A stretch of 64,000 nt of DNA from Bacteroidota bacterium (GTDB lineage Bacteria; Bacteroidota; Ignavibacteria; Ignavibacteriales; Melioribacteraceae), in contig JAHJUE010000022.1 of NCBI GenBank assembly GCA_018829205.1, positions 372,001-436,000 of the forward strand, in the 5' to 3' direction. The notes beneath the pieces were generated by a model. That model was not told the DNA's origin and did not search any database. It was given only the letters and a program-made list of their open reading frames with translations. A program made the position numbers and the translations under genes. This document shows, piece after piece, positions 6,395-39,082 of the stretch (the stretch's first letter is position 1; every line of letters starts with the position of its first letter).

Positions 6395-9300
6395 TTACCT
6401 AACAATCGCGAGTTTTTGTGTAATGTCCTGCGAAATTCCATTGGCTTCAATAATCGCCTTGTATATATAAACACCGCTTCCGAGAAGATCGCCGTCTTCA
6501 TCTCTGCCGTCCCAATATATTTTGTTAAAATCATTATTAAGTTCTATCCGGTTTTTCCGGATTTCTTTTACGAGTCTTCCGGCAATTGTATAAATTTTAA
6601 TTCTAAATTCATCCGGAATTTGAGTAAGTGTAAAAGTGAAATAGGTATCGTTTGAAAACGGATTCGGATAATTAAATAAATTAAGTAGCTTTACCTGGGT
6701 TGAAACAATAAAGGATTTTGACAAACCGTTTTGTTCGGCAAGGTTGCCTGAGGCGTCTTCGGCAAATACTTCAATCGTATGCTCTCCGTCATTTAGTTCA
6801 GGTTTAAATTCAACAGTATATTTTGGATTTGTATTTGAAATCGAATAGCTGATATTATTATTTCCCGAATAATAAACTGGAGTATTATCTAAAAATAATT
6901 TTACCGATGAAGTATCCGTAATAGGCAGAACGGAATTATCGTTCAGTTCAATCTTTATAAGGGGATTCGGACGAATATATTCGCCGTCAAAAATATCATT
7001 CCCGTCAATTGTTAAAATTAATGACGGTTTGTTTGTATCAGGCTTAACATAAAAAGGAATCGAATAGAAATTATTATCCTTATAAAGCTCAATAATTTTA
7101 TTCCCGGCATCCGCATTAATATTAAACTTATAATGCCCGCTTAAATTTGTTGTATTATAATCTATGTTAAACGATTTTTTACTAGCCGAATCGATTGAAG
7201 CTACAAACTGTTCTAATACATTAAATGATGATTTATTATTTTCATTGACCAAATATACCTTTATATAAAAACTATCCGCGGGAGATTCTCCCGCATTATA
7301 AACATCAAATTTAAGTTCCGCATTTTCGCCGGAATTAACAGAATCACTTAATAGTGATACAACTTGATAATTGACGGCAAGTTCGGGGGGCATATCGTAC
7401 TCAACTCCAAATGAATTTAATACAGGCGATTCATTATTTTTATTCGAATTAAACAGCGCGAGAATTTTAAGTTTGGGATAAATTTTAGAATCAATTTCGC
7501 TTAAATCCGCGGATGAATTTATAATTAATAATTCTTTTAATGTATCTGCAGAACCGTCAGATTTAATTCCAATCGGGAAAAATGAAATGTTTGAATTGGA
7601 AAGTAATTCCTGACCGGCAACTAATTCTTTCCAGCGTCCTGCGTAACCTAATTCTTGAGTAATAAAACTTCCCGAATCCGCGAGAAAAGAAAATGTTGTA
7701 TTAATTGATACCGGTCCGTCGCCGGCTTTGGAAACGGCTTCGGGCATTGTTCCGGTTAAAGCACCTTTTCTTCCGATAAATGCCCATGAACTTCTAAAAC
7801 CCACCTCATCAATTAATTTACTCCCGAATGATTTTATAAGATTAATTAATTCAACATTACTAAGAGAACCTTCATCGGAAACAGCGATCGCGACTAACCG
7901 ATTTCCAGATAATGTATCAAGAAAATTAATATAAGCCGTAATATTATCGCCGCCGGCAAATGTATTAAAATATTTGTATTCAATAAAACTATAAGGCGGG
8001 TCCGCGTTGAACAATGAAATATGGTGACCGACGGTAGGAGTCGGCACATAATTAATTCCGTTTCTTGAAATTATTGCCGCCTGCCCGTCTTCAAAACCTG
8101 CGGAGAAAAGTTCGAACAGTACAAAGGTGCTGTCTATTGACCATTGATTATTACTAAAAGTTAGATTACTGCTTGACGTGCCTAAGTTGCTGATGCTGTC
8201 GTTCATAAAAAATTTGTTTTTCTCTTTAACAAAAGAAAATGAAGGCGAATAATCATTGCTCCCTTTTATTCTCGTCCGTCCCCAATACCTCTTCCCTGTC
8301 AATGTATTATTTAACTCAATTGTTGTGAATACGGTATCAAATGGGATTTCATAAATTTCTTTATTTAAGAATTTATCGTCATCCGAAATTTCAATTTCTA
8401 TAATTTCTGCGTTTGGAACTGCTGTTGAATTTAAAAGTCTCAGGCGATTTAAAATTCCGTTCGCATATTTGTATTGAATAAGCGGTCTAATCGAGGAACT
8501 TGCTACATTAAATTCTATTTGTTCGTAATTGTCGTCTTCCGAAATTTCATCGTATTTGGATTTTGAGTCAAGCTGAACCTTTATTAAATGCCTGCCTGCT
8601 TTATCTTTTACAGGCAAATTAATATTTATAGAATCTTCAAAATTGGGAATTACTGCCTTAAGCGAATATGTTTCGGAAATGTTTTTATAGGAATGTGTAA
8701 TTAATAAGTCCAATGAATCATCCGGTACATAACCTAAATTTCTAATCCGTATGCTTAACTTAACACTGTCCGATAAATCTGTTAATGTTTGAGTGCTTAC
8801 GCTTAATCCGTTATTGAGAACAAAATTTGGTTTTTGCGGAATCGGCAAAGTAATAACAGGATCACCGATTAAGGTATTAGTTAAAGCAAATACTTTATAA
8901 ACATCGGAAGAACCGAATTGACTAATCATCTCTAATTTTGCTTCTTTATGAGCCTCGCTAATGTTAAAAATATTATCGCCAAGGATTTTTTTATAAAATA
9001 ATTTAGGACTTAAAACTGAAGAAGAAACAAAACCAAGGGATGAATTACCTATATATGCTATTGCCTGCCCTTCTTCGGCTAAAACAAATAATTCTGAAAA
9101 TGAAGTAATATCCGATTCGGCGAATTTGGCGGTTGAACATCCGAAATCCGATATAATCGGATAACGATTTCTATTATTTTTTAACTGTGCCGGACTAGTA
9201 ATTGAATTATCCCAAATTTGAGTTCCGCTATGCCCTAAATATGAAATAAATACAGCGCCGTTATCAATCGCTTTTTGAAAATAGTCTTTTGAATACGGGC

Positions 9301-11683
9301 CGAAATTTGACGGCGGATTTACTGTTTTATAAAAATGTTCGTATTGTCCGCCGACAGGTTTAACCGCAAGATAATTATCAATTACAAATTGATTCGATTC
9401 CCTCAATAAATTTATTTCCGAAGGAGACGCCGCATCACCGCTAGAAAAGAACAAATATTTTTTATTCCAATCGTCAAAATCTTGTGAAATATAATCCCGA
9501 TGTTTTTCAAAATAACGATCTAACTGTTCATTGCTAGTAACAGGAAGACGTCCGATATTCATTTGAGGAATATACGCTCCGGTCGTATCCCAAACTACGA
9601 ACCAATTATCACTTACCGGAACGCCGAAGGAAGGCACATAATTAATTACGCGTTCTTTTACGGAAGTTAAATTTTTATATTTGTTCCCGTAATAATCGTA
9701 AGTTGCTCCTCCAATAAGAACAACATATTCCGGTTTTGGATCACGCCAGTAATCATGTGTCGAAATTAAAAAATCTTTTACGGCTTCGGGATTAAAAAAC
9801 CCGAATGAATATTCATCGTATATATCGTCGATATCAACAACAGCCGTTGAAAGATTATAACCGTTTCCAACAAACCCGGCGTATTCATTTACTTTTGATA
9901 AAAACTTTTTATGTGTAACCGCGATATAATCGGCTTGATTATCAGAGTTTCTTAAATTTTTAAATATCTTCGTATAATAGATTTTAGGAGATCCTATTAA
10001 ATTCTCATCCGCCAAAATAAATTTGTCATTTGCGTCCAACGTATCGCCAAATACTATAGTCCCATGCTCCGACTCAGTAAAATATTTTTTATAAACATTT
10101 CCTTTCTTCCATAAAACCAATTGTGTGTCCGATAGATTTGTAATTTTAACATTCATTCCTTTCGACTGCGTTAGAAAAGAAAATTGAAAAGCCAAAGAAT
10201 CGTTTTCGGCTTTTAAGTATCTAGGGTATTCAATTTCATACCAATCAAAAATACAAGCGTTGATTGAAGCGTTTGTGGGGATTGAGTTAACTTTTAGTGT
10301 ATTCGCGCCGTCCAGCAACAAACTTGAATTTAATTTATTTTCAATAACGACTTGTTCATATTTATCAATATAGATTGAATTACTCCATTGATCCGTAGAA
10401 TTAAGGCCCAGCGTAATCAGATGAGCGTTAGTACTGATATTTGAAGCAAAGTCCTGAAGTTTAACAAACATTTTAAATTGTTTGTCCGGGTAAATATCGG
10501 TCGCGGTAAAATTGCAATTTCTAATACCTACACCCAAATTTCCTTCATGCCATGTTTTATTTTCAGTCCAATCCGGCATTTCTCTGCGCACGGAACTGGA
10601 CATAGAGAAATCAAACCAGGTATTAGTTTCATAATGTTCAATTTGAGAATAGTATTCTAATGTATCTGGATAAGCTGGCACGGATTTATCCGCGGTTACG
10701 ACACGCTGTCCTAATTCCGCCCCCCATGTAAGCCAGTAAATTGTTGTATCGGTATATCTCCCTAGGTATTCATTATAAGGTTCGTTATAATTGCTAATTT
10801 CCCGGTGAATCCCGCCCATATTTCTTAACCCAAAAAATTCTATATAATCAGACTCATCAAACATAAAATCATTTTCGCCGTAAACAAAAATCGGAATTTC
10901 ATTCCCCTTTAAGTACAGTTTAAAAGTTTTTGGATTTATTGCCGCGGTTAATATCCCCAAAGATTCAATATCATTTTTATATAGCCTGTATATTCCGTCC
11001 TTGGCTGTTCCTAGTTTAATGTATGCGGCTGAATAATCGATCCATGAATCATTTTTAGATCTTATATTTTCATTTTTTATTAATTGGCTTGATGCAAATT
11101 CCTTATCCAGAATTATATTGTTAATTTCTCCGGATGAAACAGGTACTTGGTTATCTATACCGGAGTTAAACATAATATCAAGTTTTATAATTTCTACAAA
11201 GGTAATTCCGGATTTTTCATTTAAATGAAAGGGGTTTATTTTTAAGTGCAGACAATAATTGTTATCAATCCTAAGTTTCCCTTTTTCCTCTACTAATATT
11301 TTTGAAGAGTATTTAGGGATAACGCTTTCTTCATAAATAATTTTACCGTTTATTGTATTTACAATCGGATTAAATTCAGGAACCGCGTTTATTATTTTTT
11401 GAGATATTACTTCATAAGATATTTTAGGATTAGAGTTTTGAGGTATCGCCAGGAATATATCATAACCAGGTAATTTCGCTTCATTAGGATTAGATTCGTT
11501 CATATAATCCGGGAAGATTATTTTTTCCGAATTATCTTTTTTTACAATGTGATAATTTGTATTTAACTTCAGCTTATAACTAATTGAATTTCGTAAATAT
11601 TTTTTATCAATTATTTTTACCTGAGCGCTGGCTGCCATTCCCGTTAAATAAAATATAAAGGCGATTTTTAGAAATGATTTCAT
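6395..11683 (-). CDS. porU: Type IX secretion sortase PorU-like, gingipain (C25) family, very large
   Basis: The protein has 1762 residues with a signal peptide (MKSFLKIAFIFYLTGMAASAQ). The C25 cysteine protease domain lies at about 600-950. The catalytic pair is visible as GHSG with His818 and FGCSTA with Cys849, spaced as in gingipains. Ahead of it are Asn/Tyr-rich domains usual for PorU (for example GGIHREISNYNEPYNEYLG). Behind it come CARDB/Ig-like repeats (about 980-1090 and 1430-1570) and a C-terminal T9SS sorting domain (FNYPNPFSNDTYF ... GSGVYIYKAII ... KLAIVR). PorU removes the sorting domain from T9SS cargo at the cell surface and attaches the cargo to A-LPS. Bacteroidota PorU is usually nearer 1100-1300 residues. 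A secreted C25 protease that is merely T9SS cargo is the alternative. No other T9SS machinery gene is in the window. Confidence 0.8.
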   Translation of the reverse strand: MKSFLKIAFIFYLTGMAASAQVKIIDKKYLRNSISYKLKLNTNYHIVKKDNSEKIIFPDYMNESNPNEAKLPGYDIFLAIPQNSNPKISYEVISQKIINAVPEFNPIVNTINGKIIYEESVIPKYSSKILVEEKGKLRIDNNYCLHLKINPFHLNEKSGITFVEIIKLDIMFNSGIDNQVPVSSGEINNIILDKEFASSQLIKNENIRSKNDSWIDYSAAYIKLGTAKDGIYRLYKNDIESLGILTAAINPKTFKLYLKGNEIPIFVYGENDFMFDESDYIEFFGLRNMGGIHREISNYNEPYNEYLGRYTDTTIYWLTWGAELGQRVVTADKSVPAYPDTLEYYSQIEHYETNTWFDFSMSSSVRREMPDWTENKTWHEGNLGVGIRNCNFTATDIYPDKQFKMFVKLQDFASNISTNAHLITLGLNSTDQWSNSIYIDKYEQVVIENKLNSSLLLDGANTLKVNSIPTNASINACIFDWYEIEYPRYLKAENDSLAFQFSFLTQSKGMNVKITNLSDTQLVLWKKGNVYKKYFTESEHGTIVFGDTLDANDKFILADENLIGSPKIYYTKIFKNLRNSDNQADYIAVTHKKFLSKVNEYAGFVGNGYNLSTAVVDIDDIYDEYSFGFFNPEAVKDFLISTHDYWRDPKPEYVVLIGGATYDYYGNKYKNLTSVKERVINYVPSFGVPVSDNWFVVWDTTGAYIPQMNIGRLPVTSNEQLDRYFEKHRDYISQDFDDWNKKYLFFSSGDAASPSEINLLRESNQFVIDNYLAVKPVGGQYEHFYKTVNPPSNFGPYSKDYFQKAIDNGAVFISYLGHSGTQIWDNSITSPAQLKNNRNRYPIISDFGCSTAKFAESDITSFSELFVLAEEGQAIAYIGNSSLGFVSSSVLSPKLFYKKILGDNIFNISEAHKEAKLEMISQFGSSDVYKVFALTNTLIGDPVITLPIPQKPNFVLNNGLSVSTQTLTDLSDSVKLSIRIRNLGYVPDDSLDLLITHSYKNISETYSLKAVIPNFEDSININLPVKDKAGRHLIKVQLDSKSKYDEISEDDNYEQIEFNVASSSIRPLIQYKYANGILNRLRLLNSTAVPNAEIIEIEISDDDKFLNKEIYEIPFDTVFTTIELNNTLTGKRYWGRTRIKGSNDYSPSFSFVKEKNKFFMNDSISNLGTSSSNLTFSNNQWSIDSTFVLFELFSAGFEDGQAAIISRNGINYVPTPTVGHHISLFNADPPYSFIEYKYFNTFAGGDNITAYINFLDTLSGNRLVAIAVSDEGSLSNVELINLIKSFGSKLIDEVGFRSSWAFIGRKGALTGTMPEAVSKAGDGPVSINTTFSFLADSGSFITQELGYAGRWKELVAGQELLSNSNISFFPIGIKSDGSADTLKELLIINSSADLSEIDSKIYPKLKILALFNSNKNNESPVLNSFGVEYDMPPELAVNYQVVSLLSDSVNSGENAELKFDVYNAGESPADSFYIKVYLVNENNKSSFNVLEQFVASIDSASKKSFNIDYNTTNLSGHYKFNINADAGNKIIELYKDNNFYSIPFYVKPDTNKPSLILTIDGNDIFDGEYIRPNPLIKIELNDNSVLPITDTSSVKLFLDNTPVYYSGNNNISYSISNTNPKYTVEFKPELNDGEHTIEVFAEDASGNLAEQNGLSKSFIVSTQVKLLNLFNYPNPFSNDTYFTFTLTQIPDEFRIKIYTIAGRLVKEIRKNRIELNNDFNKIYWDGRDEDGDLLGSGVYIYKAIIEANGISQDITQKLAIVR

Positions 11684-24246: not shown

Positions 24247-25701
24247 TTAAAAGTTATAAGCCACATTAAATATTAATTTATCAACAGAAATATCCTGGAA
24301 TGTTCTTGAAACATTAAAATCATAATTATCGCTGAAATTTTTCCACCATCCATGCGCATACGCTATATCAATACTTACGGCTTTATCTGTTGCTAATCCT
24401 AGTCCGGCTGTAAAATATTTTTTATCAAAATCGGAAGGATCGCCTTTATAAGGAGATTGGCTGCTCATGTATCCCCCTCTAACCTTAATACCCAGCATAG
24501 GGATTGAATACTCTGCGCCAAGACTGTAATTAAGTACATTATCAAACAGGGATATTATTTCTTTATTGTTATCGTATCTTTGACCAGGATCCAGACCTGC
24601 GCTGAATTCCATTTGCGAATAATCAATTAGTTTAATATCGGCGCTTACAATAAGTCCGCTTATATTTACAGACGCGCCTCCCGAGAATTCATAAGGCGAA
24701 TTAATATCATATTCGGATTTTGATTCTTCGGGGTCAAGATCATACCCGTCTCCAAAAGCGAATGTGCTTGAACCGGATACAAAAAACTTCTCTTTAATCG
24801 TATAATAACTTGGGAATTTAACGGCTCCGCCGATGTTAATAAACGGATTTAGCTTATACAAAAAGCCTAGTTTAAAATCCCATCCGCTTATATCCCAGTC
24901 AATAACGTCATTTAAGTAGAATGTTTGAAAATCTCTCGTAACTTCGTCATTGGGATCAAGAAGAATTGAGCTGTTGTAAATATTTAAATCATCGTCCTCA
25001 TAAAAATCTTTATATCTTTTGTATGAACCTGTAATTAGGTTAAGAGTCCCCCCCACAAAAAGATTTTTAGCGACTTCTGCTGAAGCAGAAATATTCCAGC
25101 TATTAATATTTCCTTCTTCATTAATTGTACCGCTTTGATTTAAATTACCGTTAATAACTGTTTCGTCGCTTATATAATTATCATTATTATCATACACCGG
25201 ATAACTTAAACCGAGCAGATAAGGAATATCGTCGTTAAAACTAGTTAGATATTGTATGTAAGAATTATTCCCCGAATTATAGCCGTCGAATTTTAATGTT
25301 CTGTTAAAACTTTTATTCTGATTATAACCGAACGCGAATACAAGGCTTCCTCTATATGTAGGGAAGGGAAAAACTAATCCGATCCGGCTGAAGTTCGTAG
25401 CGCCTATTGAGTTTTTTGTAGTGCTTCCGAATAATGAAGCGCTGTTTTCAAGATTTTCATAATTTAATCCCATAGAAAGCGAGGCGTCGTTAATAAGACC
25501 GAGTCCGGCCGGATTAAAAAACACCGCAGAGTAATCATTGCTAACGGCCGTAAAGCTGTTTCCCATTGCTAATGCTCTGGCGCTTGAGCCGAGGCCTGGT
25601 TCCGACAATCTCAAAGCGTCGTTAAAATTTTGTGCACTTAAGGTACCGGCAATCAGAAAGAAAACAAATGCCGCACGGATTTTTGTCAATACTGTTTTCA
25701 T
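24247..25701 (-). CDS. FadL/OmpP1/PorV-like outer-membrane protein
   Basis: The protein has 484 residues with a signal peptide (FVFFLIAGTLSAQ). The N-terminus SARALAMGNSFTAVSNDYSAVFFNPAGLG is the signature of the FadL/OmpP1/TodX superfamily, which also contains the T9SS shuttle PorV. The remainder is a 14-stranded-barrel-like pattern ending in an aromatic residue (LIFNVAYNF), as usual for outer-membrane insertion. It could be a hydrophobic-substrate porin or a T9SS accessory barrel; the sequence does not decide. Its ATG overlaps the stop of the small lipoprotein upstream, so the two are coupled. Confidence 0.8.
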   Translation of the reverse strand: MKTVLTKIRAAFVFFLIAGTLSAQNFNDALRLSEPGLGSSARALAMGNSFTAVSNDYSAVFFNPAGLGLINDASLSMGLNYENLENSASLFGSTTKNSIGATNFSRIGLVFPFPTYRGSLVFAFGYNQNKSFNRTLKFDGYNSGNNSYIQYLTSFNDDIPYLLGLSYPVYDNNDNYISDETVINGNLNQSGTINEEGNINSWNISASAEVAKNLFVGGTLNLITGSYKRYKDFYEDDDLNIYNSSILLDPNDEVTRDFQTFYLNDVIDWDISGWDFKLGFLYKLNPFINIGGAVKFPSYYTIKEKFFVSGSSTFAFGDGYDLDPEESKSEYDINSPYEFSGGASVNISGLIVSADIKLIDYSQMEFSAGLDPGQRYDNNKEIISLFDNVLNYSLGAEYSIPMLGIKVRGGYMSSQSPYKGDPSDFDKKYFTAGLGLATDKAVSIDIAYAHGWWKNFSDNYDFNVSRTFQDISVDKLIFNVAYNF

Positions 25702-28504: not shown

Positions 28505-29884
28505 TCAGTTAATTTCTTTCGATTGATAAACTATATTATATTTATTTATAAGCCGGTGAATCGATCTTCTGTCAAGCCCGCATTCATCGGCAGTTTTGGA
28601 AATATTGCCGTTATTAATTTTCAGATAATGTGTAATATATTCTATTTCAAATTTTTCAAGTAAAGCGTCTTTTGCGTCTTTAAAATTAAGCGACAATACA
28701 TTTTTATCGATCGTTACGGTTTTATTAACAAGGTTAGCAGGCAAATCGGAGAGCTGAATAACATCCGAGCTGCAGAGAAAAAAGGATCTGCCGATAATAT
28801 TTTTTAATTCCCTAACATTTCCCGGCCATTGATAATTCAACAAAGCTTCTTCAGCTTCCGGCGAAAATCTTTTAATTGTTCTAGAATTTTTATCGCACAA
28901 TTCCTTCATAAAACTACAGACCAGCGGGATAATATCATCCTTTCTTTCTCTTAAAGGGGGTACTTCCAAGGAAAAAGTGTTAAGCCTGTAGAATAGATCC
29001 TGTCTGAATCTTTTTTCGGCGACTTCAACTTCAAGATTCTGATTTGTAGCGGCTATAATTCTAACGTCAATATCAATTTCTTTTTGTCCGCCTACACGTC
29101 TTATTTTTTTCTCTTCAAGCATTCTTAACAATTTGATTTGAAGCGTCTGCGTCATATCGCCTATTTCGTCAAAGAAAAATGTACCGTTGTTTGCGAATTC
29201 CAATAATCCTGGTTTTGTTTTAACCGCGCCAGTAAAAGCGCCTTTTTCGTGTCCGAAAAGTTCGCTTTCAAAAAGATGTTCAGGCAAGGCGCCGCAGTTC
29301 ACAGGAACAAAAGGATCGAGAGTGCTTTTACTGATTTTATGAATTGCCCGCGCAATCAATTCTTTACCGGTTCCGCTTTCGCCAGTAATTAAAACATTCA
29401 TGTTATTTTCGGCAACGCGTTTAACGCTTTCCATAAGTTCGGCCATTTTAGAGCTTTTGTAAATAATACCTTCAAGCTCATTATGATCAATACCATTTGT
29501 CACGAGAACTAATTTTTCATCTGTTTTTTTCAATGCCCTGTCAATGCATTCAAACAATTTTTTTGAAGTAAAAGGTTTTTCTATAAAATCAAACGCCCCG
29601 TTTTTTACAGCTTCTACACTCGCTTCAATTGTTCCGTATCCCGAAATTACAATAACAACCGAAGTAGGATTATTTTGAAGTGCAGTTTTCACTATATCAA
29701 TACCCGATACATTTTTCATTTTAAGATCGGTTATAACCAAATCAAATTTTTCATTCCCTAAAATTTCGGAAGCTATAACCGAATCCTGCTCAAACCTTAA
29801 ATCATATTCATCCCTTATTGTAAGAATTTTCTTAAGGCTGTTAAGCATTTCTATTTCGTCGTCGACAACTAAAACTTTTTTCAT
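28505..29884 (-). CDS. NtrC-family sigma-54-dependent response regulator
   Basis: The protein has 459 residues. The receiver domain (1-120) has the acidic pair VVDDE, phosphoacceptor D53 in VITDLKM and K103 in EKPF. The AAA+ domain (about 140-380) has Walker A GESGTGKE, the sigma-54-contacting loop GAFTGA, and Walker B FFFDEIG. The C-terminal Fis-type helix-turn-helix ([19 protein letters not shown]) binds upstream enhancer sites. It activates promoters of the -24/-12 class. It starts 12 bases after the sensor kinase gene and is almost certainly its partner. The divergent cytochrome genes are the obvious targets; that is inference. Confidence 0.95.
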
Positions 29885-29896
29885 AAAACTTATCCG

Positions 29897-31360
29897 TTAA
29901 TTAAAAGTAATTATAAAACTTGTTCCTTTACCCTTTTCGCTTTTGCACTTTATGCCGGCATTATGATTTTTGCAGATGTTTTTTACAATATACAATCCCA
30001 AACCCGTTCCTTTTTCGGCCTGTTTGGTGGTAAAAAAAGGAGAAAAAATCTGGTCGATATATTTGGAATCAATTCCTTCGCCGTTATCTGTTATGGTTAT
30101 TTGTATTTTCCCGTTATTATTTTTATCGAGAATAATTTTAAGCTGCCCTCCCTCGGAAAGCGAATCAATAGAATTATTGTACAGATTTGTAAATACCTGA
30201 TCAAGCTGATAAGCGTCGGCATAAACAAAAACGTCTTCAATATTAAATTCTTTAGTTAAAATAATATTTTTCTTCTTAACAATCGGTTCAAAAATTTGGA
30301 GACTGTCGTTTATAACTTTCGTTAAACTTACCTCAGAAAAATCTTTTTCCGATTTTTTGCTATGCTTTAATATATTGCCCGTTATTTTAGATACTTTTAA
30401 TGATTGGTCGAGCAGTACATCAAAATCTTCTTCATATTTCTGCAGATTAGGATTATTCATTGATTCGAGCTGCAGATAATCAGCACGAGTCATAATAATT
30501 GCCGTATGATTATTAATCTCATGTGCCATCTCGGTAGTCAGCTCCCCTATTGTTGCTAATTTATGAGTATGCTGAAGCTGTTTAAAATGAAGCTCTTCAA
30601 TTTCATTTCTTGAATTTTGAATTTCCGAAACCATATTGTCAAAGTTTTTTTCGAGCTGACCGAATTCATCATCTTTTACCGGATTAAATCTGATTCCGAG
30701 ATTCCCCTTTTCAACTTCGTCAAATGCTGAAAGGAATTTTTTTAAAGGATTATTAATTAATTTCTCAAAGAAGTATATAAAACCTATAGCGAGAACAATA
30801 ATAATAACTACCGCAAGAAAAAGAATATGGTAAGAACCCGTATAAAAATATCTCTCTGCGTTTGTTAAATGAGAATCGACATCCAGGTAAGCGATAACAG
30901 GATCATTTCCATGGCAATTTTGACATCTGTTTTCGTTTTGAATTGCTTCAAAAGCTGAATAAGCATGCTTATCCTTCAATAAAATAATTTTCCTTTCCAT
31001 TCCGTCGGCTGTGTAGGGATTAATATGGTCAGGTGCCAATTTGATAAAGTTCTTTCCGACTTCAGTTAAATCCGTTGCGTAAGTAACAATACCGTTTTTA
31101 TTAAATATTCTTATATGATTGATATTATCGTAAGCTGAAATTTCATTCACAATTCCCTGAACATTTTTACTGCTGCCCTGCATCATAGCGTTGTCTAATC
31201 CGTACCTTAACATATCCATTGTCGCATCGAGCATAATTGTCGATCTCTGATGGAAATTTTCGGCAAACTGACTCATTATAAAGGTCACGGGAATTCCAAC
31301 AACAAGCATAATAAATAATATTGTTGACCAAATAAACTTTTCTTTAATAGTTTTTAACAT
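29897..31360 (-). CDS. Sensor histidine kinase with a haem-binding CxxCH in its periplasmic domain
   Basis: The protein has 487 residues from ATG 31360. I prefer this start because hydrophobic residues begin at FIWSTILFIML; a longer frame from GTG 31405 adds 15 unlikely residues. TM1 is at about 9-30, the periplasmic sensor at 31-177, TM2 at about 178-202, then a HAMP domain. The H box is MAHEINN, the N box is NLYNNSIDSL, and the G boxes are DNGEGI and GTGLGLYIV. The periplasmic domain contains CQNCH (146-150), a c-type haem attachment motif, in the context NRCQNCHGND. It may therefore sense redox state or a gas through covalent haem. It phosphorylates the NtrC-type regulator encoded 12 bases downstream. 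Confidence 0.92.
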   Translation of the reverse strand: MLKTIKEKFIWSTILFIMLVVGIPVTFIMSQFAENFHQRSTIMLDATMDMLRYGLDNAMMQGSSKNVQGIVNEISAYDNINHIRIFNKNGIVTYATDLTEVGKNFIKLAPDHINPYTADGMERKIILLKDKHAYSAFEAIQNENRCQNCHGNDPVIAYLDVDSHLTNAERYFYTGSYHILFLAVVIIIVLAIGFIYFFEKLINNPLKKFLSAFDEVEKGNLGIRFNPVKDDEFGQLEKNFDNMVSEIQNSRNEIEELHFKQLQHTHKLATIGELTTEMAHEINNHTAIIMTRADYLQLESMNNPNLQKYEEDFDVLLDQSLKVSKITGNILKHSKKSEKDFSEVSLTKVINDSLQIFEPIVKKKNIILTKEFNIEDVFVYADAYQLDQVFTNLYNNSIDSLSEGGQLKIILDKNNNGKIQITITDNGEGIDSKYIDQIFSPFFTTKQAEKGTGLGLYIVKNICKNHNAGIKCKSEKGKGTSFIITFN

Positions 31361-31591
31361 GTTAAGCTCAAAATTTATTAAAAATAATTGCGACATCGGT
31401 GTCACAGTGCGACAAACATTTCACATAAAAAGTGAATAATTTGATTAAAAACCAACAAATCCGACAGTTAATCTGAATATATTAATTTAATAAAACCGAC
31501 ATTTCAACATCTTTTAAGACATCAATATCAATTTAACTAATTTTATTCATTTTGGAAAATTTCAGGCACAATCATTGTAATAATAATAAGC
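31361..31591. promoter_or_regulatory. Divergent control region between kinase operon and receiver-cytochrome genes
   Basis: Within 231 bases the pentamer CGACA occurs at 31391, 31410, 31462 and 31497 in the same orientation. An imperfect dyad TGTCAC-AGT-GCGACA lies at 31400-31414. In AT-rich DNA this is far more than expected by chance and may mark binding sites for the NtrC-type regulator. No gene is present unless the kinase starts at GTG 31405. Confidence 0.45.
31564..31579 (+). promoter_or_regulatory. Weak sigma-54-like -24/-12 match AGGCAC-N5-TTGTA
   Basis: AGGCAC (31564-31569) and TTGTA (31575-31579) have the correct GG-N10-Gx spacing of the sigma-54 consensus TGGCAC-N5-TTGCA. A start about 12 bases on would fall at the ATG (31592), leaving no leader, which argues against it for the receiver gene. 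A Bacteroidota-type box TCATTTTG (31547-31554) nearby would leave a normal leader and is the rival explanation. Confidence 0.25.
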
Positions 31592-31975
31592 ATGAGAGTA
31601 TTTATAATTTCAAATGAATTTACGAAAGAAAATATGTTTCAGCTTATAAACGGATATAATGATGCTGAGATTTATTTTTGCACGGACATAAATGATCCTT
31701 TTGGAATTATATCAAAAACAATAGATCTGAATCCTTCATTGGTTGTTATTGACGATGATTTCACTTCTCCTAATACAATACAAATCCTGAAGTCAATTAA
31801 AACAATCAACAAAAATATGGCGACAATATTTGTGACTTCAAATAACAGTCTGGAGTTAGGGCGTGAAGTTACGCCGTTAGGAATTCAGTTCTATGCTATT
31901 AAGCCGCTGTCAAAAGCGGAAATTTTTGAATCAATTAAATCAATTATTAATCTACAAAAAAAAATGTCTTATTAA
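31592..31975 (+). CDS. Stand-alone receiver-like protein
   Basis: The protein has 127 residues, a single receiver-type (CheY-like) domain without an output domain. The beta-3 segment LVVIDDDF supplies D54 as the likely phosphoacceptor, and beta-5 supplies K104 in AIKPLS. The usual acidic pair after beta-1 is reduced to N8-E9 in IISNEF, so Mg2+ binding and phosphorylation may be weak. It ends 16 bases before the first cytochrome and is probably co-transcribed with it. It may be a phosphate sink or adaptor for the kinase encoded divergently; that is inference. Confidence 0.75.
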   Translation: MRVFIISNEFTKENMFQLINGYNDAEIYFCTDINDPFGIISKTIDLNPSLVVIDDDFTSPNTIQILKSIKTINKNMATIFVTSNNSLELGREVTPLGIQFYAIKPLSKAEIFESIKSIINLQKKMSY

Positions 31976-31977
31976 AC

Positions 31978-31998
31978 ATGCGGAGGCAGAAATGCTAA
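31978..31998 (+). promoter_or_regulatory. Leader of cytochrome 1: strong SD within a six-codon ORF
   Basis: GGAGG (31982-31986) lies five bases before the cytochrome ATG at 31992 and fixes that start. It is embedded in a tiny frame M-R-R-Q-K-C-stop (31978-31998) that overlaps the cytochrome start. The same 26 bases precede the second cytochrome (from 34299). Confidence 0.45.
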
Positions 31999-34076
31999 AA
32001 AAACTCACTTTATCTTTACTTTTCATCGCTTTGTCTTTTACGATGGTTCAAGGACAATCCGTTGAGATTAAAACATACGGTATATCTGACAGAACAGTTG
32101 CTGCAGATGCCAATGATATTTTTGATCTCAAGTATAACGGTCTTGCTAACGTAGGTGTTGGAACTAAAATCTACCTAATTGGTAACGCCGTTGATACAAC
32201 TTTTACAGCTCCACAATTTACAATTGTTTCAAAACCAGGCACTTCAGCCGCAGATTTTATTGGAACAGCGGATTTGGATGCTAATTCAAAAGTTGTTTCT
32301 CTTATTGTTGATGTAGTTGGTACCTACACAATTGAATTTACAGACGGTACAATGACTTCTTCAATCACAATAAACGCTGGTACGTATTTAGGTTTACCAT
32401 CAACCGGATTATCATGCGGAACATGCCATTCAAGCGAAAAAGCTAAATGGGAATTAACCGGTCATGCTAATACAGTAAAACCTTATACTGATGATCCTGC
32501 AGGCCATTTCCAAGCATTTTGTTTGGGCTGCCATACAACCGGTTTTGATGCAAATGCAGATAATGACGGATTTGACGATCATGATTTCGTATTCCCCGCT
32601 ACTTTAGCAGAAGGCAATTATGATGCATTAGTAGCAGCTTATCCTGCAGCAATGCAAAGAGCAAATGTTCAATGCGAAGCTTGCCATGGTCCGGGAAGCG
32701 CGCATAACAGCGTAGTAGCAGACAGCAAAATGGTTTCATCAAACGCATCAGCGGTTTGCGCAAGCTGCCATGATGCGGGAACACATCACGCAATTCCTGC
32801 ATTATTTGAAGAATCTGGTATTGACGCTACAGAATTTGACGGACGCGGTTTCCACGGCGGACACGCAGCAGGCGCTTTCGTTTCTTCTACCGATAGAGAC
32901 GGTTGCTCACCTTGCCATAGCGGTGCCGGATACGTACAATGGATTAAAGAAGGAAGACCTTCAGACGCTTTAGGTTTACCTGCAAAAACTGCTGTAAGAC
33001 CTACAGCTTCAACTTTTACATGCGTTACATGCCACGATCCTCATGACGCAACAAATCCTTATCAATTAAGAGCTAAAGAAACTACACTTGGCGACGGAAC
33101 AGTTATATCTTTTGAAAAATACGGAACTGGCGCTCAGTGTATTGATTGCCATAGAAGCCGCCGTCAAGCTGCAACTTATGCAGAAGACGTTAAAAACGGA
33201 AGCTCGCATTTCGGCGCACACCATGGTCCTCAGGGAGATATGCTTTTAGGTAAAAACGCTCCTGATTACGGTATTGAATGGCCAAGCTCACCTCACGGTG
33301 TTGCCGGCGGAAACGCATGCGTTGACTGTCATATGGCAGGCGAAAGCGCGTTTGATGCAGACGGTAATTTATTAAAATTCGGCGGTCACACATTTAACAT
33401 GAACAATGAAGAAGGCGAAGACAACGTTGAAGCTTGCGCTCCTTGTCACGGCGAAGTCGGCGAAACATTTAAAGAGAAAAAATTCTATATCAACGGAAAA
33501 GCTGATTTAGACGGCGACGGAACTGCTGAAGGTTTACAGGTTGAAGTTCACGGCTTATTGGAAAAATTAGCTACATTCTTACCTAAAAATGCTGATGGCG
33601 TAGTATTGATTCAATCAAGTGCAGACTTTACAACAGCGGCAGACGACAGTCTTACACCTAGAATTATGAGAGCCGGTTATGTTTACTTCTTTGTTGAAGA
33701 AGACAGAAGTCTTGGCGTTCATAATCCTCAGTTTACAATTGCTCTTCTTAAAGCGGCAATTGATGAAATGGGTGGAACAACAGGTATTGAATACGCTAAT
33801 ACAGAATTACCTAGTGATTATTCCTTGGATCAGAACTATCCAAACCCATTCAACCCTTCAACAACTATCAGATTCTCTATTCCTGAGGCTGGAAACGTAA
33901 AAGTTTCTGTTTATGATGTATTAGGAAAAGAAGTTGAAGTTTTAGTTAGTGAAAATATGAATGCTGGCGTATTTAATGTAAGCTGGGACGCTTCAAGATA
34001 CGCTTCAGGAATTTATTTCTACAAACTGCAGTCAGATAATTTTGTAAGCATCAAGAAAATGGTACTTATCAAATAA
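31992..34076 (+). CDS. Secreted nonahaem c-type cytochrome with T9SS sorting domain (copy 1)
   Basis: The protein has 694 residues. I start at ATG 31992 because GGAGG precedes it and the signal peptide MLKKLTLSLLFIALSFTMVQG follows at once; the longer frame from 31893 overlaps the receiver gene. Residues 22-135 are beta-rich (Ig-like). Nine CxxCH haem sites lie between C142 and H486 (CGTCH, CLGCH, CEACH, CASCH, CSPCH, CVTCH, CIDCH, CVDCH, CAPCH), with many extra His as possible axial ligands. Residues 611-694 form a type A T9SS sorting domain (LDQNYPNPFNPSTTIRF ... ASGIYFYKLQ). It should be matured in the periplasm and then displayed at the cell surface, where it could pass electrons to extracellular acceptors. 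The start lies 16 bases after the receiver gene. Confidence 0.93.
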   Translation: MLKKLTLSLLFIALSFTMVQGQSVEIKTYGISDRTVAADANDIFDLKYNGLANVGVGTKIYLIGNAVDTTFTAPQFTIVSKPGTSAADFIGTADLDANSKVVSLIVDVVGTYTIEFTDGTMTSSITINAGTYLGLPSTGLSCGTCHSSEKAKWELTGHANTVKPYTDDPAGHFQAFCLGCHTTGFDANADNDGFDDHDFVFPATLAEGNYDALVAAYPAAMQRANVQCEACHGPGSAHNSVVADSKMVSSNASAVCASCHDAGTHHAIPALFEESGIDATEFDGRGFHGGHAAGAFVSSTDRDGCSPCHSGAGYVQWIKEGRPSDALGLPAKTAVRPTASTFTCVTCHDPHDATNPYQLRAKETTLGDGTVISFEKYGTGAQCIDCHRSRRQAATYAEDVKNGSSHFGAHHGPQGDMLLGKNAPDYGIEWPSSPHGVAGGNACVDCHMAGESAFDADGNLLKFGGHTFNMNNEEGEDNVEACAPCHGEVGETFKEKKFYINGKADLDGDGTAEGLQVEVHGLLEKLATFLPKNADGVVLIQSSADFTTAADDSLTPRIMRAGYVYFFVEEDRSLGVHNPQFTIALLKAAIDEMGGTTGIEYANTELPSDYSLDQNYPNPFNPSTTIRFSIPEAGNVKVSVYDVLGKEVEVLVSENMNAGVFNVSWDASRYASGIYFYKLQSDNFVSIKKMVLIK

Positions 34077-34089
34077 GAAGTATGTTATT

Positions 34090-34121
34090 AAAATATGCCC
34101 GGATTAATCCGGGCATATTTT
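34090..34121. terminator. Perfect 32-base palindromic terminator after cytochrome 1
   Basis: The arms are 34090-34105 and 34106-34121, exactly complementary, with a GC-rich core (ATGCCCGG) flanked by A and T tracts. It lies 13 bases after the stop, so copy 2 probably has its own promoter. Confidence 0.85.
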
Positions 34122-34258
34122 TACATTATAATAAGATAACAAGACATTATTTCCCAATACTAAAAAATTGTTCCCCTCTCTATCTTACTTTTGAGAAGAA
34201 ATAATTTATATCATATCCCTTAGTCCTATTTTTTTGTTTTTTTTCTAAAATATAACTA

Positions 34259-34274
34259 TGGTATAATAGTTGAT
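34259..34274 (+). promoter_or_regulatory. Candidate promoter of cytochrome 2
   Basis: TGGTAT-N5-TTGAT (34259-34274) has sigma-54 -24/-12 spacing with three mismatches to the consensus core. The start would fall near 34285, giving a leader of about 28 bases. The same stretch contains TATAAT (34262-34267), so a sigma-70-type -10 box explains it equally well. Confidence 0.3.
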
Positions 34275-34298
34275 ATTATGTCTATAAGTCTTATTAAA

Positions 34299-34319
34299 AT
34301 GCGGAGGCAGAAATGCTAA
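34299..34319 (+). promoter_or_regulatory. Leader of cytochrome 2, identical to that of cytochrome 1
   Basis: The same frame M-R-R-Q-K-C-stop surrounds GGAGG (34303-34307), five bases before ATG 34313. Identity with the first copy runs from the mini-ORF ATG into the A-run of the second codons of the cytochromes. Confidence 0.45.
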
Positions 34320-36301
34320 AAAAAACTACTACTTTCCTTTTCATGATGTTATTGCTTGCCACTATAACATCGGCTCAGAATGTTACTATTGACACTTACG
34401 GAGTAACTGACAGAGAAGCTGCAGTATCGGCAGAAGATATTTTTGATTTATCATATAACGGTTTGACAAATGTAGGAACCGGAACAAAGGTTTATCTGAA
34501 AGGATATACAGCGGACAAAAATGCCGCAAACGGACAATGGTTTACTATTACACTGCCAAGCGGTTCAGCCGCACAATTCGGCAGTTCGGTAAATCTTGAT
34601 TCAAGCAATCAGGTAATTTCGGTTACACTTGATTTGGCCGGGAAATATGTTTTTCAATTTTCAAACGGAACTGAGTTTGACGAAATAACATTTAACGCCG
34701 GTACATATTTAGGATTGCCCTCAGGTTTTAATTGTACATCATGCCATTCTACAACCGCTGCAAAATGGGTTGAGACAAAACATGCAACAACATTGCAAAG
34801 AGGATTAAACGGAACTTTAAGCAGCCATTTCGGCGAAAACTGCGTCCGCTGCCACTCTACAGGTTATGATGCTAATGCATCTAACAACGGTTTTGACGAC
34901 AGAGATTTTGTATTCCCCGATACATTAAGCGAAGAAGCATACAATCAAGTTTTAACAAATTCACCATTAGCAATGCAGTTAGCAAATGTTCAGTGCGAAT
35001 CATGCCATGGTCCGGGAAGCGAACACATGGGAAATACTGCTGATTCAAAAATCGTAAGTTCGATTTCGCAAGAATCATGCGCTAAATGCCATGACTCAGG
35101 CACACACCATGTATTCCCTTCGCAGTGGGATATTTCAGGTCACGCTAAATTAGCCGAAACAGGTCATTCAGGTCAAACAAGAGCGGCTTGTATTCAATGC
35201 CACAGCGGAAACGGATTCGTTTCTTATATTAAGGCAGGCAAAGTAGCACCTACAGCCAACGAAGCAGAAAAAACAAATATTACATGCGCAACTTGCCATG
35301 ATCCTCATGATGCTACAAATCCTCACCAGTTAAGAACAGTAACAGCAACACTTTCAAACGGAGTTGAAGTTACCGACGGCGGACTTGGAATGTTATGTAT
35401 GAATTGCCACAAAACCCGCAGAGACGCTGTTACTTATACTGACGGATATTTAAAGAATTTAAGCGCGCATTACGGACCGCATTACGGACCACAGGCAGAT
35501 ATAATTACAGGTAATAATATTCCTGATTTAGGAAAAACATTCGCAACTACAAACCATTTCCCTTTTACGCCTAATGCCTGCGTAAGCTGTCATATGAATA
35601 ATCAAGGCGCTGTTGACACTGAAGGAAATGTATTATTAAGCGGCGGACATTCATTCAGCATGAGTACGCCTGACGGCGTAGACAACGTTGCGGCTTGCGC
35701 ACCTTGCCACAGTATTGAATCATTCGATAAGTTATCAATTACCGTTAACGGCAAGACAGATTTTGACGGTGATGGAACTTCGGAAGGTCTGCAGCATGAA
35801 GTAGAAGGAATGCTCGAAGAAATTACAATGCTTTTACCTCCTCTTGGCTCGCATGAAATCGGTCTTATAGACTCATCATGGTCGCCAATTCAGGCCAAAG
35901 CATTTTACATTTGGGAAATGGCTCATGAAGACGGAAGTTTAGGTATTCATAATCCTAAATTTGTTGTCGGATTTTTAGAAGAAACCTTAATTCAGCTTAA
36001 AGGCGCTGTTGGTGTAGATGAAGTTGGCGGATTGCCAATATCATACTCCTTGGATCAGAATTATCCGAATCCGTTCAACCCATCAACAACAATCAGATTC
36101 TCGGTACCTGAAGCAGGAAATGTAAGAATTACAGTTTATGATGTTATAGGAAAAGAAATTGAAGTTTTGGTTAATAAGGATATGAATCCCGGCGTATTTA
36201 ACGCTACTTGGAACGCGGCTAATTACGCATCCGGAATATATTTCTACAAAATGCAGACAAACAATTTTGTAAGCGTTAAAAAGATGATACTTGTAAAATA
36301 G
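34313..36301 (+). CDS. Secreted nonahaem c-type cytochrome with T9SS sorting domain (copy 2)
   Basis: The protein has 662 residues and is a paralogue of the gene before it. The signal peptide is MLKKTTTFLFMMLLLATITSAQ. Nine CxxCH sites lie between C141 and H466 (CTSCH, CVRCH, CESCH, CAKCH, CIQCH, CATCH, CMNCH, CVSCH, CAPCH) in the same order and spacing as in copy 1. Residues 579-662 form the T9SS sorting domain, nearly identical to that of copy 1. The main differences are in the loops between haems 4 and 7. It is expected at the cell surface as an electron carrier. The tandem arrangement shows recent duplication and divergence, and the second copy has its own leader and probably its own promoter. 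Confidence 0.93.
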   Translation: MLKKTTTFLFMMLLLATITSAQNVTIDTYGVTDREAAVSAEDIFDLSYNGLTNVGTGTKVYLKGYTADKNAANGQWFTITLPSGSAAQFGSSVNLDSSNQVISVTLDLAGKYVFQFSNGTEFDEITFNAGTYLGLPSGFNCTSCHSTTAAKWVETKHATTLQRGLNGTLSSHFGENCVRCHSTGYDANASNNGFDDRDFVFPDTLSEEAYNQVLTNSPLAMQLANVQCESCHGPGSEHMGNTADSKIVSSISQESCAKCHDSGTHHVFPSQWDISGHAKLAETGHSGQTRAACIQCHSGNGFVSYIKAGKVAPTANEAEKTNITCATCHDPHDATNPHQLRTVTATLSNGVEVTDGGLGMLCMNCHKTRRDAVTYTDGYLKNLSAHYGPHYGPQADIITGNNIPDLGKTFATTNHFPFTPNACVSCHMNNQGAVDTEGNVLLSGGHSFSMSTPDGVDNVAACAPCHSIESFDKLSITVNGKTDFDGDGTSEGLQHEVEGMLEEITMLLPPLGSHEIGLIDSSWSPIQAKAFYIWEMAHEDGSLGIHNPKFVVGFLEETLIQLKGAVGVDEVGGLPISYSLDQNYPNPFNPSTTIRFSVPEAGNVRITVYDVIGKEIEVLVNKDMNPGVFNATWNAANYASGIYFYKMQTNNFVSVKKMILVK

Positions 36302-36459: not shown

Positions 36460-37869
36460 ATGAGAATTGAAAAAGATTCAATTGGACATGTAGAATTAGA
36501 GAACAACTCTTTATACGGAATTCACGCTTACAGAAGCGTACATAACTTCCCCCCAAGCGGTGAAAGAATAAATCTTCACCTAATTAAAGCGTTCCTTCAA
36601 GTAAAAAAAGCCGCGGCTGAAACTAATTTTTTATGCGGACTGCTGAATGAAAATAAGTATAAATTCATAATCGATGCAGTTGATTCGCTTCTAACTGAAA
36701 TTCAAGAAAATATTGATAATTCGGCAGATACAATATATTCGAAAATAATTGTCGACCCTTATCAAGGCGGCGCCGGCACTTCATTAAATATGAATGTAAA
36801 TGAGGTAATTGCAAATACGGCTTTAAAATTAATGGGGAAAAACTGCGGAGAATATCAATACATTCATCCGTTGGATGATGTAAACATGTCGCAGTCAACT
36901 AATGATACATACCCAACCGCGCTTAGAATCGCATCGTTAATATTATTAAAAGAACTAGAAGATTCATTTGCCGAACTGCAGAATTCACTTCAGAATAAGG
37001 AAGAAAACTTTAAAGGGATAATAAAATTAGGTCGCACGCAATTTCAGGACGCGGTGCCGATCACTTTGGGACAGGAATTCGGAGCCTACGCGCAGGCTAT
37101 CGCAAGGGACAGATGGCGCATTTATAATTCGGCAGAGAGACTCCGCTCTGTGAATATGGGTGGAACGGCAGTCGGCAATTCAGTATCTGCGCCTAAGGAA
37201 TATGTGCTTCAGATAAACTCCTTGCTGAAAAAAATCACGGGTCTTCCAATTGCCAAAAGTGAGGATCTGATTGACGCAACTCAGAACCTGGATGTTTTTG
37301 TTGAAGTTCACGGGATAATAAAAGCCGGCGCGGTATCTATTATAAAAATATGCAATGATTTGAGATTTATGTCGAGCGGACCATACGGCGGAATAGGTGA
37401 AGTTAAAATGCCCCCGCGGCAATCGGGATCTTCAATAATGCCAGGGAAGGTTAATCCGGTAATTTTAGAAAACGCTATTCAAATTTCTGAAATGATTAAA
37501 GGGCATGATGTTGTAATTTCAAATCTCGTGGGAGCAGGAAATCTTGAGCTTAATGCTTTTGCCCCAATGATTGCTCATTATTTTTTACGGACTCTCGATA
37601 TGCTTAAAAAATCAAATTATAATTTAGCAAGAAATTGTATAAACGGAATTGAAGCAGACAAAGAAAAATGCATGAAGAATTTAATTAATACTTCCGCAAT
37701 ATCCGCTTCCTTTATTTCAGAATTCGGTTATGATAGAATACAGGAAATTGTAAAAAACGCATATAAAAATAATGTGCCTTTTATTCAGGAATTAACAAGC
37801 AGTAAATTAATTAAAGAAGATGATTTGAAAAAAATATTAGCAAAAGATTTAGGTATAGAAATTGAGTAA
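36460..37869 (+). CDS. aspA: Aspartate ammonia-lyase
   Basis: The protein has 469 residues, the normal length of AspA and class II fumarase. The superfamily signature GSSIMPGKVNP is at 323-333, with SQSTNDTYPTA and GRTQFQDAVPITLGQEF as the other two active-site segments. Gln in the GRTQ(F/L)QDAVP element favours aspartase over fumarase, which has GRTHLQDA. The reaction is L-aspartate to fumarate plus ammonium in the cytoplasm. Its last eight bases overlap hydF, so the two are co-translated. The same pair occurs in [FeFe]-hydrogenase maturation loci of other anaerobes, where released ammonium could serve cofactor synthesis; that role is inference. Confidence 0.88.
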   Translation: MRIEKDSIGHVELENNSLYGIHAYRSVHNFPPSGERINLHLIKAFLQVKKAAAETNFLCGLLNENKYKFIIDAVDSLLTEIQENIDNSADTIYSKIIVDPYQGGAGTSLNMNVNEVIANTALKLMGKNCGEYQYIHPLDDVNMSQSTNDTYPTALRIASLILLKELEDSFAELQNSLQNKEENFKGIIKLGRTQFQDAVPITLGQEFGAYAQAIARDRWRIYNSAERLRSVNMGGTAVGNSVSAPKEYVLQINSLLKKITGLPIAKSEDLIDATQNLDVFVEVHGIIKAGAVSIIKICNDLRFMSSGPYGGIGEVKMPPRQSGSSIMPGKVNPVILENAIQISEMIKGHDVVISNLVGAGNLELNAFAPMIAHYFLRTLDMLKKSNYNLARNCINGIEADKEKCMKNLINTSAISASFISEFGYDRIQEIVKNAYKNNVPFIQELTSSKLIKEDDLKKILAKDLGIEIE

Positions 37870-39082
37870 AACGGCAAACTCCGAAAGGAAACATATAATA
37901 TTTACAGGAAAAAGAAATTCAGGTAAGTCTTCTCTCGTTAATAGATTTATTGGTCAGGATTTAGTTATAGTAAGTGATACTCCCGGAACAACTACCGACC
38001 CGGTAAAGAAAGCGATGGAGCTTCTGCCTTTCGGACCGGTTGTTCTTGTTGATACGGCCGGGATAGATGATATAGGCGAACTTGGCGAGAAAAGAATAAA
38101 TAAATCCCTTAAAGAAATTGCAAAAGCAGATTTTGCCGTTGTAGTTGTTGAGGCGGAGAATATCTTAGTTAAAAATGAATTATTACTTTTTGATCATTTA
38201 AAAAACCTGGAAATTCCTTTTCTGGCGGTTATTAATAAATCAGAATTAGGAATAAATTATAATCTTGTTGAACAACTGGATGAAAAAGGAATTAAACACT
38301 TTTCCGTTTCATGCAGTAACAATGAAGGAATATCCGGATTAAAAGAAAATATCGCGAAATTAATTCCGCGGGAAATTGAACCTTTATTAATCGGCGATCT
38401 TGTCCAAAAACATGATTTGATAATTCTTGTTGTACCTATTGATTTAGGAGCTCCTAAAGGAAGACTTATAATGCCGCAGGTTCAGACTATAAGAGAAGCA
38501 TTGGACGAGGATACAATTGTAATGGTTGTAAAAGATAAAGAACTGCGTGCCGCTCTTGATAAATTAAAACAGCCTCCCGCTCTTGTTGTAACCGACAGTC
38601 AAGCTATTATGCGAGTCTCGGCTGATGTACCCGATCATATTCCGCTTACAACATTTTCGATTTTAATGGCACGTTATAAGGGTGATTTGCAGGAATTTGT
38701 TCGCAGTATTAAATATGTTGATGAATTACAAAACGGCGATAAAATATTAATTTCGGAAGCATGTTCCCACCACGCGCAGGAAGACGACATAGGAAAGATT
38801 AAAATACCCAGATGGCTACGCAATCATACAAAAAAAGATCTTATTATTGATGTAAGAAACGGCGCGGACTTCCCGGAAAATTTGTCGGAATATAAAATGA
38901 TTGTGCATTGCGGGGCATGCATGCTAACACGCAGAGCTATGCAGGTTCGGATAAAAGAGGCAAAACTTAACGGAGTACCAATTATAAATTACGGGGCAAT
39001 TATTTCTTATATGCACGGAGCAATACCAAGAGCAATATTACCTTTTGATGAAGCCCGTTCCGAGTGGGAAAAGATAAAATAA
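37862..39082 (+). CDS. hydF: [FeFe]-hydrogenase maturation GTPase HydF
   Basis: The protein has 406 residues, the standard HydF length. The N-terminal Era-like GTPase domain has the P-loop GKRNSGKS (16-23), DTPGTTTDP, DTAG and NKSE. The C-terminal domain carries the three cluster-binding cysteines C301 (EACSHH), C350 and C353 (VHCGAC). HydF is the scaffold on which HydE and HydG products are assembled into the 2Fe subcluster before transfer to the hydrogenase. It starts at TTG 37862, inside the end of aspA. hydE, hydG and the hydrogenase itself are not in this window and should lie elsewhere on the genome. It implies hydrogen metabolism and an anaerobic or facultative life. Confidence 0.95.
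   Translation: MSKTANSERKHIIFTGKRNSGKSSLVNRFIGQDLVIVSDTPGTTTDPVKKAMELLPFGPVVLVDTAGIDDIGELGEKRINKSLKEIAKADFAVVVVEAENILVKNELLLFDHLKNLEIPFLAVINKSELGINYNLVEQLDEKGIKHFSVSCSNNEGISGLKENIAKLIPREIEPLLIGDLVQKHDLIILVVPIDLGAPKGRLIMPQVQTIREALDEDTIVMVVKDKELRAALDKLKQPPALVVTDSQAIMRVSADVPDHIPLTTFSILMARYKGDLQEFVRSIKYVDELQNGDKILISEACSHHAQEDDIGKIKIPRWLRNHTKKDLIIDVRNGADFPENLSEYKMIVHCGACMLTRRAMQVRIKEAKLNGVPIINYGAIISYMHGAIPRAILPFDEARSEWEKIK

Follow-up and report, generated by a model that had tools for sequence, protein, structure and literature searches.

What does a bacterium do with a nine-haem cytochrome that carries a type IX secretion system (T9SS) sorting domain, and how would such a protein leave the cell? 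The question is raised by two tandem genes of a Bacteroidota bacterium (class Ignavibacteria, family Melioribacteraceae), located in a 64,000-nucleotide stretch of contig JAHJUE010000022.1 (positions 372,001 to 436,000; assembly GCA_018829205.1). We call this whole stretch the window, and coordinates given without a prefix are positions in it. Gene A (31992..34076, plus strand) encodes a protein of 694 amino acids (aa), and gene B (34313..36301, plus strand) encodes one of 662 aa. We consider it probable, from sequence comparisons and a structure model, that A, B, and a third copy in the same genome, C, act as OcwA-like terminal reductases on the cell surface, delivered there by the T9SS, and are not nanowire subunits.

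The translations of the two open reading frames and an A/B alignment confirmed nine CxxCH motifs in identical order in each protein, as claimed by an earlier reading made from the DNA letters without database searches (hereafter, the sequence-only reading). The start of A was set at 31992 by a GGAGG ribosome site and the signal peptide, the program-listed start at 31893 being too early. Read by eye, both leaders look like hydrophobic signal peptides without a lipobox, in agreement with the export signal assigned earlier to each protein. The leader is followed by an immunoglobulin (Ig)-like domain (A, 32055..32390, plus strand, by alignment to the model of B; B, 34376..34708, plus strand, from the structure model and fold matches) and by the haem core with its C-terminal helices (A, 32403..33776; B, 34721..36004, with an OcwA/NrfA-type fold; both plus strand). 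The CxxCH motifs are at residues 142, 177, 228, 256, 305, 344, 383, 443, and 482 of A and at residues 141, 177, 228, 256, 293, 325, 362, 423, and 462 of B. Both proteins end in a T9SS type A sorting domain (A, 33819..34073; B, 36044..36298; plus strand) that is above the cut-off of TIGR04183 (51.1 bits for A and 48.3 for B; cut-off, 23) and of PF18962 (47.5 and 46.8 bits; cut-off, 27).

We then analyzed the haem core. A single-sequence search of the PDB already indicated OcwA (6i5b) and OmhA (6qvm), and a profile of 33 homologues retrieved OcwA first (E value, 4.5e-25) and OmhA with an E value of 2.6e-17, followed by NrfA, octahaem nitrite reductase, MccA, and c554. In the profile alignment, the nine haem motifs are all collinear with OcwA, and so is the C-terminal GxHN helix. 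An AlphaFold model of mature B minus the sorting tail, built from the 33 homologues, had a predicted local distance difference test score (pLDDT) of 86.6 and a predicted template modeling score (pTM) of 0.84, with C-terminal helices at residues 472-486, 504-519, and 527-541. VIA-align ranked OcwA first for this model (Z score, 16.7; root mean square deviation, 3.7; 335 aligned residues), OmhA second (Z score, 16.1), and NrfA third (Z score, 13.7). Residues 1 to 111 of the model match Ig and filamin folds (Z score, ∼7 to 8), which shows that an Ig-like domain precedes the haem core. As judged from these alignments and the model, the haem part of A and B is an OcwA-type nonahaem terminal reductase with an added N-terminal Ig-like domain. 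The sequence-only reading had left the choice between a nanowire and a terminal reductase to structure prediction; run on B, it leans toward a terminal reductase, since OcwA has the same fold and haem order.

Models of other cytochrome families fitted A and B poorly. The match to PF02335 is partial, no NrfA model was among the matches of A or B, and the NrfA, OTR, and MccA models all stayed below cut-off (OTR, 23.5 of 375 bits). The OmcA/MtrC model TIGR03507 reached 27.3 of 209.3 bits for B and was not listed for A; an MtrC reading was therefore rejected. No filament cytochrome appeared among the sequence or structure matches of A and B in the PDB profile search and VIA-align, an absence that is weak evidence.

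In OcwA, six haems have bis-His ligation and one has His-Met ligation; the remaining two are open, and each of these has a His-His pair (PMC6703420). We looked for equivalent residues in the 33 homologues. Seven His residues outside the CxxCH motifs (B H157, H238, H277, H332, H390, H446, and H546) are invariant in 33/33 sequences, as is a Met after haem 8 (B M428). The six invariant His besides H390 are the right number of distal ligands for the six bis-His haems of OcwA, and a hidden Markov model alignment pairs most of these six with His of OcwA. The THH motif after haem 4 aligns with the SHH motif that holds the haem-2 pair of OcwA. Between haems 7 and 8, H390 (the first His) and H/Y391 occupy the place of the OcwA haem-5 pair, an equivalence based on motif order only, with a model that holds no haems and ligands read from sequence. 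The pocket after haem 4 is HH in A, B, and C; the one after haem 7 is HH in A and HY in B and C, and the family is divided between the two forms. The clearest candidate for a difference in function between the two proteins is this HH/HY variation in the putative haem-5 pocket, and A and B may accordingly differ in redox properties.

The sorting domain is a lasting feature of the family, which we found in 43 of the 58 related genomes searched and, phylum-wide, in 62 of 395 genomes, almost all of which belong to the same class. The NxPNPF sorting tail is present in 44 of 45 distinct nine-haem homologues examined, and the exception, from an unclassified bin (L011:9230-11809), has an apparent N-terminal lipobox (LAGC); the domain is therefore not accidental. 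The lipobox of this tail-less homologue would be an alternative surface anchoring. Tailed versions also occur in FCB-group and Neomarinimicrobiota bins, and a contig scan for the family by N-terminal patterns returned only three loci. SprA and PorU are both encoded in the genome, above cut-off. Together with the sorting-domain scores and the conservation of the tail, they uphold the prediction that A and B are T9SS cargo. A search of the same genome gave 103 regions that match the query. Nearly all of them owe the match to the sorting domain and only three match over the whole length, so the full-length cytochrome matches are not due to chance. The third, C (G000:C12:158981-160882), is 74% identical to B overall. 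Genome matches and a CxxCH scan, which together were non-exhaustive, found sorting tails on only three multihaem proteins of this genome; the genome-wide count of CxxCH DNA patterns was noisy (312 matches versus 176 in the control).

Haem attachment was examined through the cytochrome maturation genes. We found five matches to the CcmC/CcmF/CcsA domain in the genome, of which three lie in frames the size of CcmF; ResB gave no match. One CcmF/NrfE-family haem lyase gene lies close upstream of C (L060:12064-14472), and a 49% identical homologue adjoins the nonahaem locus of a relative, G032 (L065:14132-16531); the gene beside C is possibly a dedicated haem lyase. A 1,762-aa C25-peptidase protein related to PorU (6395-11683, minus strand) is encoded in the same window as A and B; it also contains ILEI, CARDB, and its own sorting domain, and its best match is the putative second T9SS sortase PorU2 (421 bits; cut-off, 450). 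At 24247-25701 (minus strand) lies the gene of an outer-membrane protein that weakly matches the PorV family and BamG, and a protein of similar size occurs near the nonahaem locus in many relatives. In relatives G009 and G002, a second cytochrome, with seven or eight haems and its own T9SS tail, adjoins the nonahaem gene (L062:11647-13200 and L064:6988-8535).

A possible electron supply is encoded in a cluster on contig C38 of the same genome, with a CymA/NrfH-like hexahaem protein, 19- and 18-haem proteins, a c554-like tetrahaem protein, a possible beta-barrel (425 aa), and 14- and 10-haem proteins. Ignavibacteria are reported to have porin-cytochrome complexes (PMC7399161). Homologues (62% identical) of the C38 hexahaem protein adjoin the nonahaem locus in relatives G031 and G013, and the G031 locus also holds an 18/23-haem homologue. 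By this neighborhood in relatives, the nonahaem proteins are linked to an extracellular electron chain, as far as gene order can tell.

We propose the following route. A, B, and C would be exported by Sec, receive their haems in the periplasm from a CcmF-type (system I) apparatus, and fold into a nine-haem OcwA/NrfA-like core carrying the N-terminal Ig-like domain. The T9SS would then recognize the C-terminal sorting domain and pass the protein through SprA, after which the PorU sortase would remove the tail and anchor the protein. At the surface, the protein would accept electrons from an outer-membrane porin-cytochrome conduit and hand them to extracellular acceptors such as metal oxides, humics, electrodes, and possibly soluble oxidants; one or two of its haem sites would be open.

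Several observations weigh against this reading. The first page of Foldseek matches for the whole B model did not contain OcwA, and no match had an E value of ≤0.001; that list consists mostly of Ig-like folds because of the N-terminal domain. The OcwA fold match comes from a second aligner, VIA-align, applied among Foldseek's top 1,000. As the model of B holds no haems, it gives no haem-to-haem distances, and we infer contiguous haem packing from homology to OcwA. The HH of the haem-2 pocket is not strict, H266 being present in 29/33 homologues. The C38 conduit cluster is on a different contig from A and B, and its beta-barrel has only a weak match, to LptD, which leaves the electron source for A and B uncertain. 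Lastly, a literature search of partial coverage found no description of a T9SS-exported multihaem cytochrome.

Could the substrate of these proteins instead be a soluble compound of nitrogen or sulfur (nitrite, hydroxylamine, nitric oxide, or tetrathionate), turned over at the surface or in the periplasm in the manner of NrfA, OTR, or MccA? The core does belong to the NrfA/OcwA/MccA superfamily, open haem pockets are predicted, and OcwA itself is slow on nitrite and reacts with hydroxylamine (PMC6703420). We nevertheless regard such an enzyme as unlikely: A and B do not reach the cut-offs of the NrfA, OTR, and MccA models, a small soluble substrate would make a surface address needless, and a distinct NrfHA pair, encoded on contig C24 of the genome, scores as the ammonia-forming nitrite reductase.

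Two further explanations concern the location and assembly of the proteins. If the sorting domain were inactive on A and B, they would stay in the periplasm as electron carriers. Maturation in the periplasm is indeed unavoidable, and T9SS passage of a nine-haem protein is a prediction only, but the retention of the tail in all but one of the homologues while the cores diverge to ∼33% identity, and the apparent lipobox in the sole tail-less homologue found, make this idea very improbable. A nanowire subunit of the OmcS, OmcE, or OmcZ kind would, like A and B, be multihaem, predicted to be extracellular, and present in several copies per genome. Here, both fold and haem order match a globular reductase of the OcwA/NrfA type, and no filament cytochrome was among the sequence matches, however weak an argument that absence is. 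Neither a folded Ig-like domain nor a sorting tail that is cleaved off is known from OmcS, OmcE, or OmcZ filaments. We give this last possibility hardly any credence and retain the surface terminal reductase as the preferred reading.

We then looked into the genetic locus upstream of A. A single-domain receiver protein of 127 aa (31592..31975, plus strand) is encoded co-directionally, 16 bases upstream of A, and is found at the same place in five relatives (27 to 49% identity). A sigma-54-type -24/-12 site (AGGCACAATCATTGTA; 31564..31579, plus strand; shuffle P = 0.003) begins 28 bases upstream of the receiver start. Stronger sites are present in G024, G009, G032, and G031 (19.6 to 20.7 of 21.2), with a spacing of 27 to 28 bases; in G002, the site lies before the cytochrome gene, and G013 has none. 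Among loci with the kinase and regulator described below, 6/7 have a site, versus 0/6 among loci without them (P = 0.005, with a threshold chosen afterwards). A scan for sigma-70-type promoters yielded chance numbers only. Here and in relatives, the site ends 12 bases before the receiver ATG, which would put the transcript start almost at the start codon, so that the transcript is leaderless or the true start is downstream.

Divergently from the receiver and A, a sensor histidine kinase (29897..31405, minus strand) carries one CxxCH in its predicted periplasmic sensor domain, and this haem c motif is invariant in 7 orthologues. Family matches identify its partner (28505..29884, minus strand) as an NtrC-type sigma-54-dependent response regulator. 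The arrangement of receiver and A, kinase, and regulator is conserved in relatives. The invariant CxxCH, the sigma-54 activator next to the kinase, and the sigma-54-type site make a haem-sensing switch of A likely: the periplasmic haem of the kinase would sense a redox or ligand signal, and the regulator would relay it to the sigma-54 promoter of A. Between A and B is a strong, terminator-like hairpin with a T run (34090..34122, plus strand; -23.2 kcal/mol and z = -7.4 for 34074-34140), which was absent from the pattern-scan listing; because of it, B is probably transcribed separately from A. A second histidine kinase with one CxxCH is encoded near the C38 multihaem cluster (L057:1262-2893). 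Directly 3' of B are genes for an aspartase-like lyase (36460-37869) and, paired with it, the [FeFe] hydrogenase maturase HydF (37862-39082, plus strand), and the same pair is also found 3' of the nonahaem gene in several relatives.

How did the pair arise? The sequence-only reading had proposed a duplication followed by divergence, with leaders and sorting domains nearly identical and the middle different. The identity of A to B is 38% in the leader (only 8/21 residues), 49% in the N-terminal domain, 48% in the haem core, and 74% in the sorting domain. The cores have thus diverged as described and the sorting domains are similar, though not nearly identical, while the statement on the leaders proved wrong; the identical stretch is the 5' flank with the ribosome site and first codons (gcggaggcagaaATGctaaaaaaa). 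In a tree of the haem region, homologues from four further genera joined A, whereas C and the homologue of G024, which is of another genus, joined B; both groups had 100% bootstrap support. The split of A and B is therefore older than these genera, and a plain tandem duplication with later core divergence does not suffice: by this tree, A and B are old, separately branching lineages. With separate trimming, the core of A is 60 to 63% identical to those of its relatives in other genera and 49% identical to that of B, whereas with this same trimming its tail is 70% identical to that of B and 50 to 52% identical to those of its orthologues. Tails of other pairs of similar core identity average 52 ± 6% identity, with a maximum of 73%, so 70% is high but not unique. 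Since the tails of A and B are more alike than those of A and its orthologues, tandem gene conversion of the tail is suggested as the simplest reading.

Compared with known systems, A and B most resemble OcwA of Thermincola potens, a nine-haem reductase of the cell surface with activity toward iron oxide, shuttles, and electrodes (PMC6703420). They share with it nine haems in the same order, the core with C-terminal helices, the invariant candidate distal histidines, putative paired-His pocket motifs after haems 4 and 7, and a predicted surface location. OcwA, however, resides in a Gram-positive cell wall, whereas A and B add the Ig-like domain and the T9SS tail, and B and C have HY at the putative haem-5 pair. 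OmhA of Carboxydothermus ferrireducens, also matched by the core, is located in the S-layer and has eleven haems and no T9SS tail. The second half of the core and the C-terminal helices match NrfA and MccA, but these are soluble periplasmic enzymes of five and eight haems, respectively. With MtrC/OmcA and OmcS-type cytochromes, A and B would share electron hand-over outside the cell, but they carry a different number of haems and would be delivered by another route. Close to OcwA, a subclade of nonahaem proteins from Gram-negative bacteria, cluster IV.A, is on record (PMC7829351); the word "sorting" is absent from the main text of that paper. In a multi-omics paper on Melioribacter roseus, the words nonaheme, multiheme, and secretion do not appear. 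With OcwA and its Gram-negative relatives on record and no T9SS-exported cytochrome found in the literature covered, the fold of A and B is known and their function probably so, and the domain architecture and the proposed delivery route are new.

On balance, we incline to the view that a route conserved across the class brings these terminal reductases out of the cell: they would mature with their nine haems in the periplasm, cross the T9SS in the folded holo form, and be under a haem-sensing two-component system. This would be a third way to place an OcwA-type reductase at the surface, besides lipoprotein export and S-layer or cell-wall attachment. If so, the T9SS is able to transport multihaem cytochromes with all haems in place, and whether it can export a holo-cytochrome becomes a directly testable question in a tractable T9SS host. 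A large, little-studied group of T9SS-bearing bacteria would then have a way of its own to bring terminal reductases to the cell exterior, and the combination of an OcwA-type core, a sorting tail, and a haem-sensor kinase/sigma-54 locus would be a marker for extracellular respiration, useful in genomes where MtrC- or OmcB-type searches find little.

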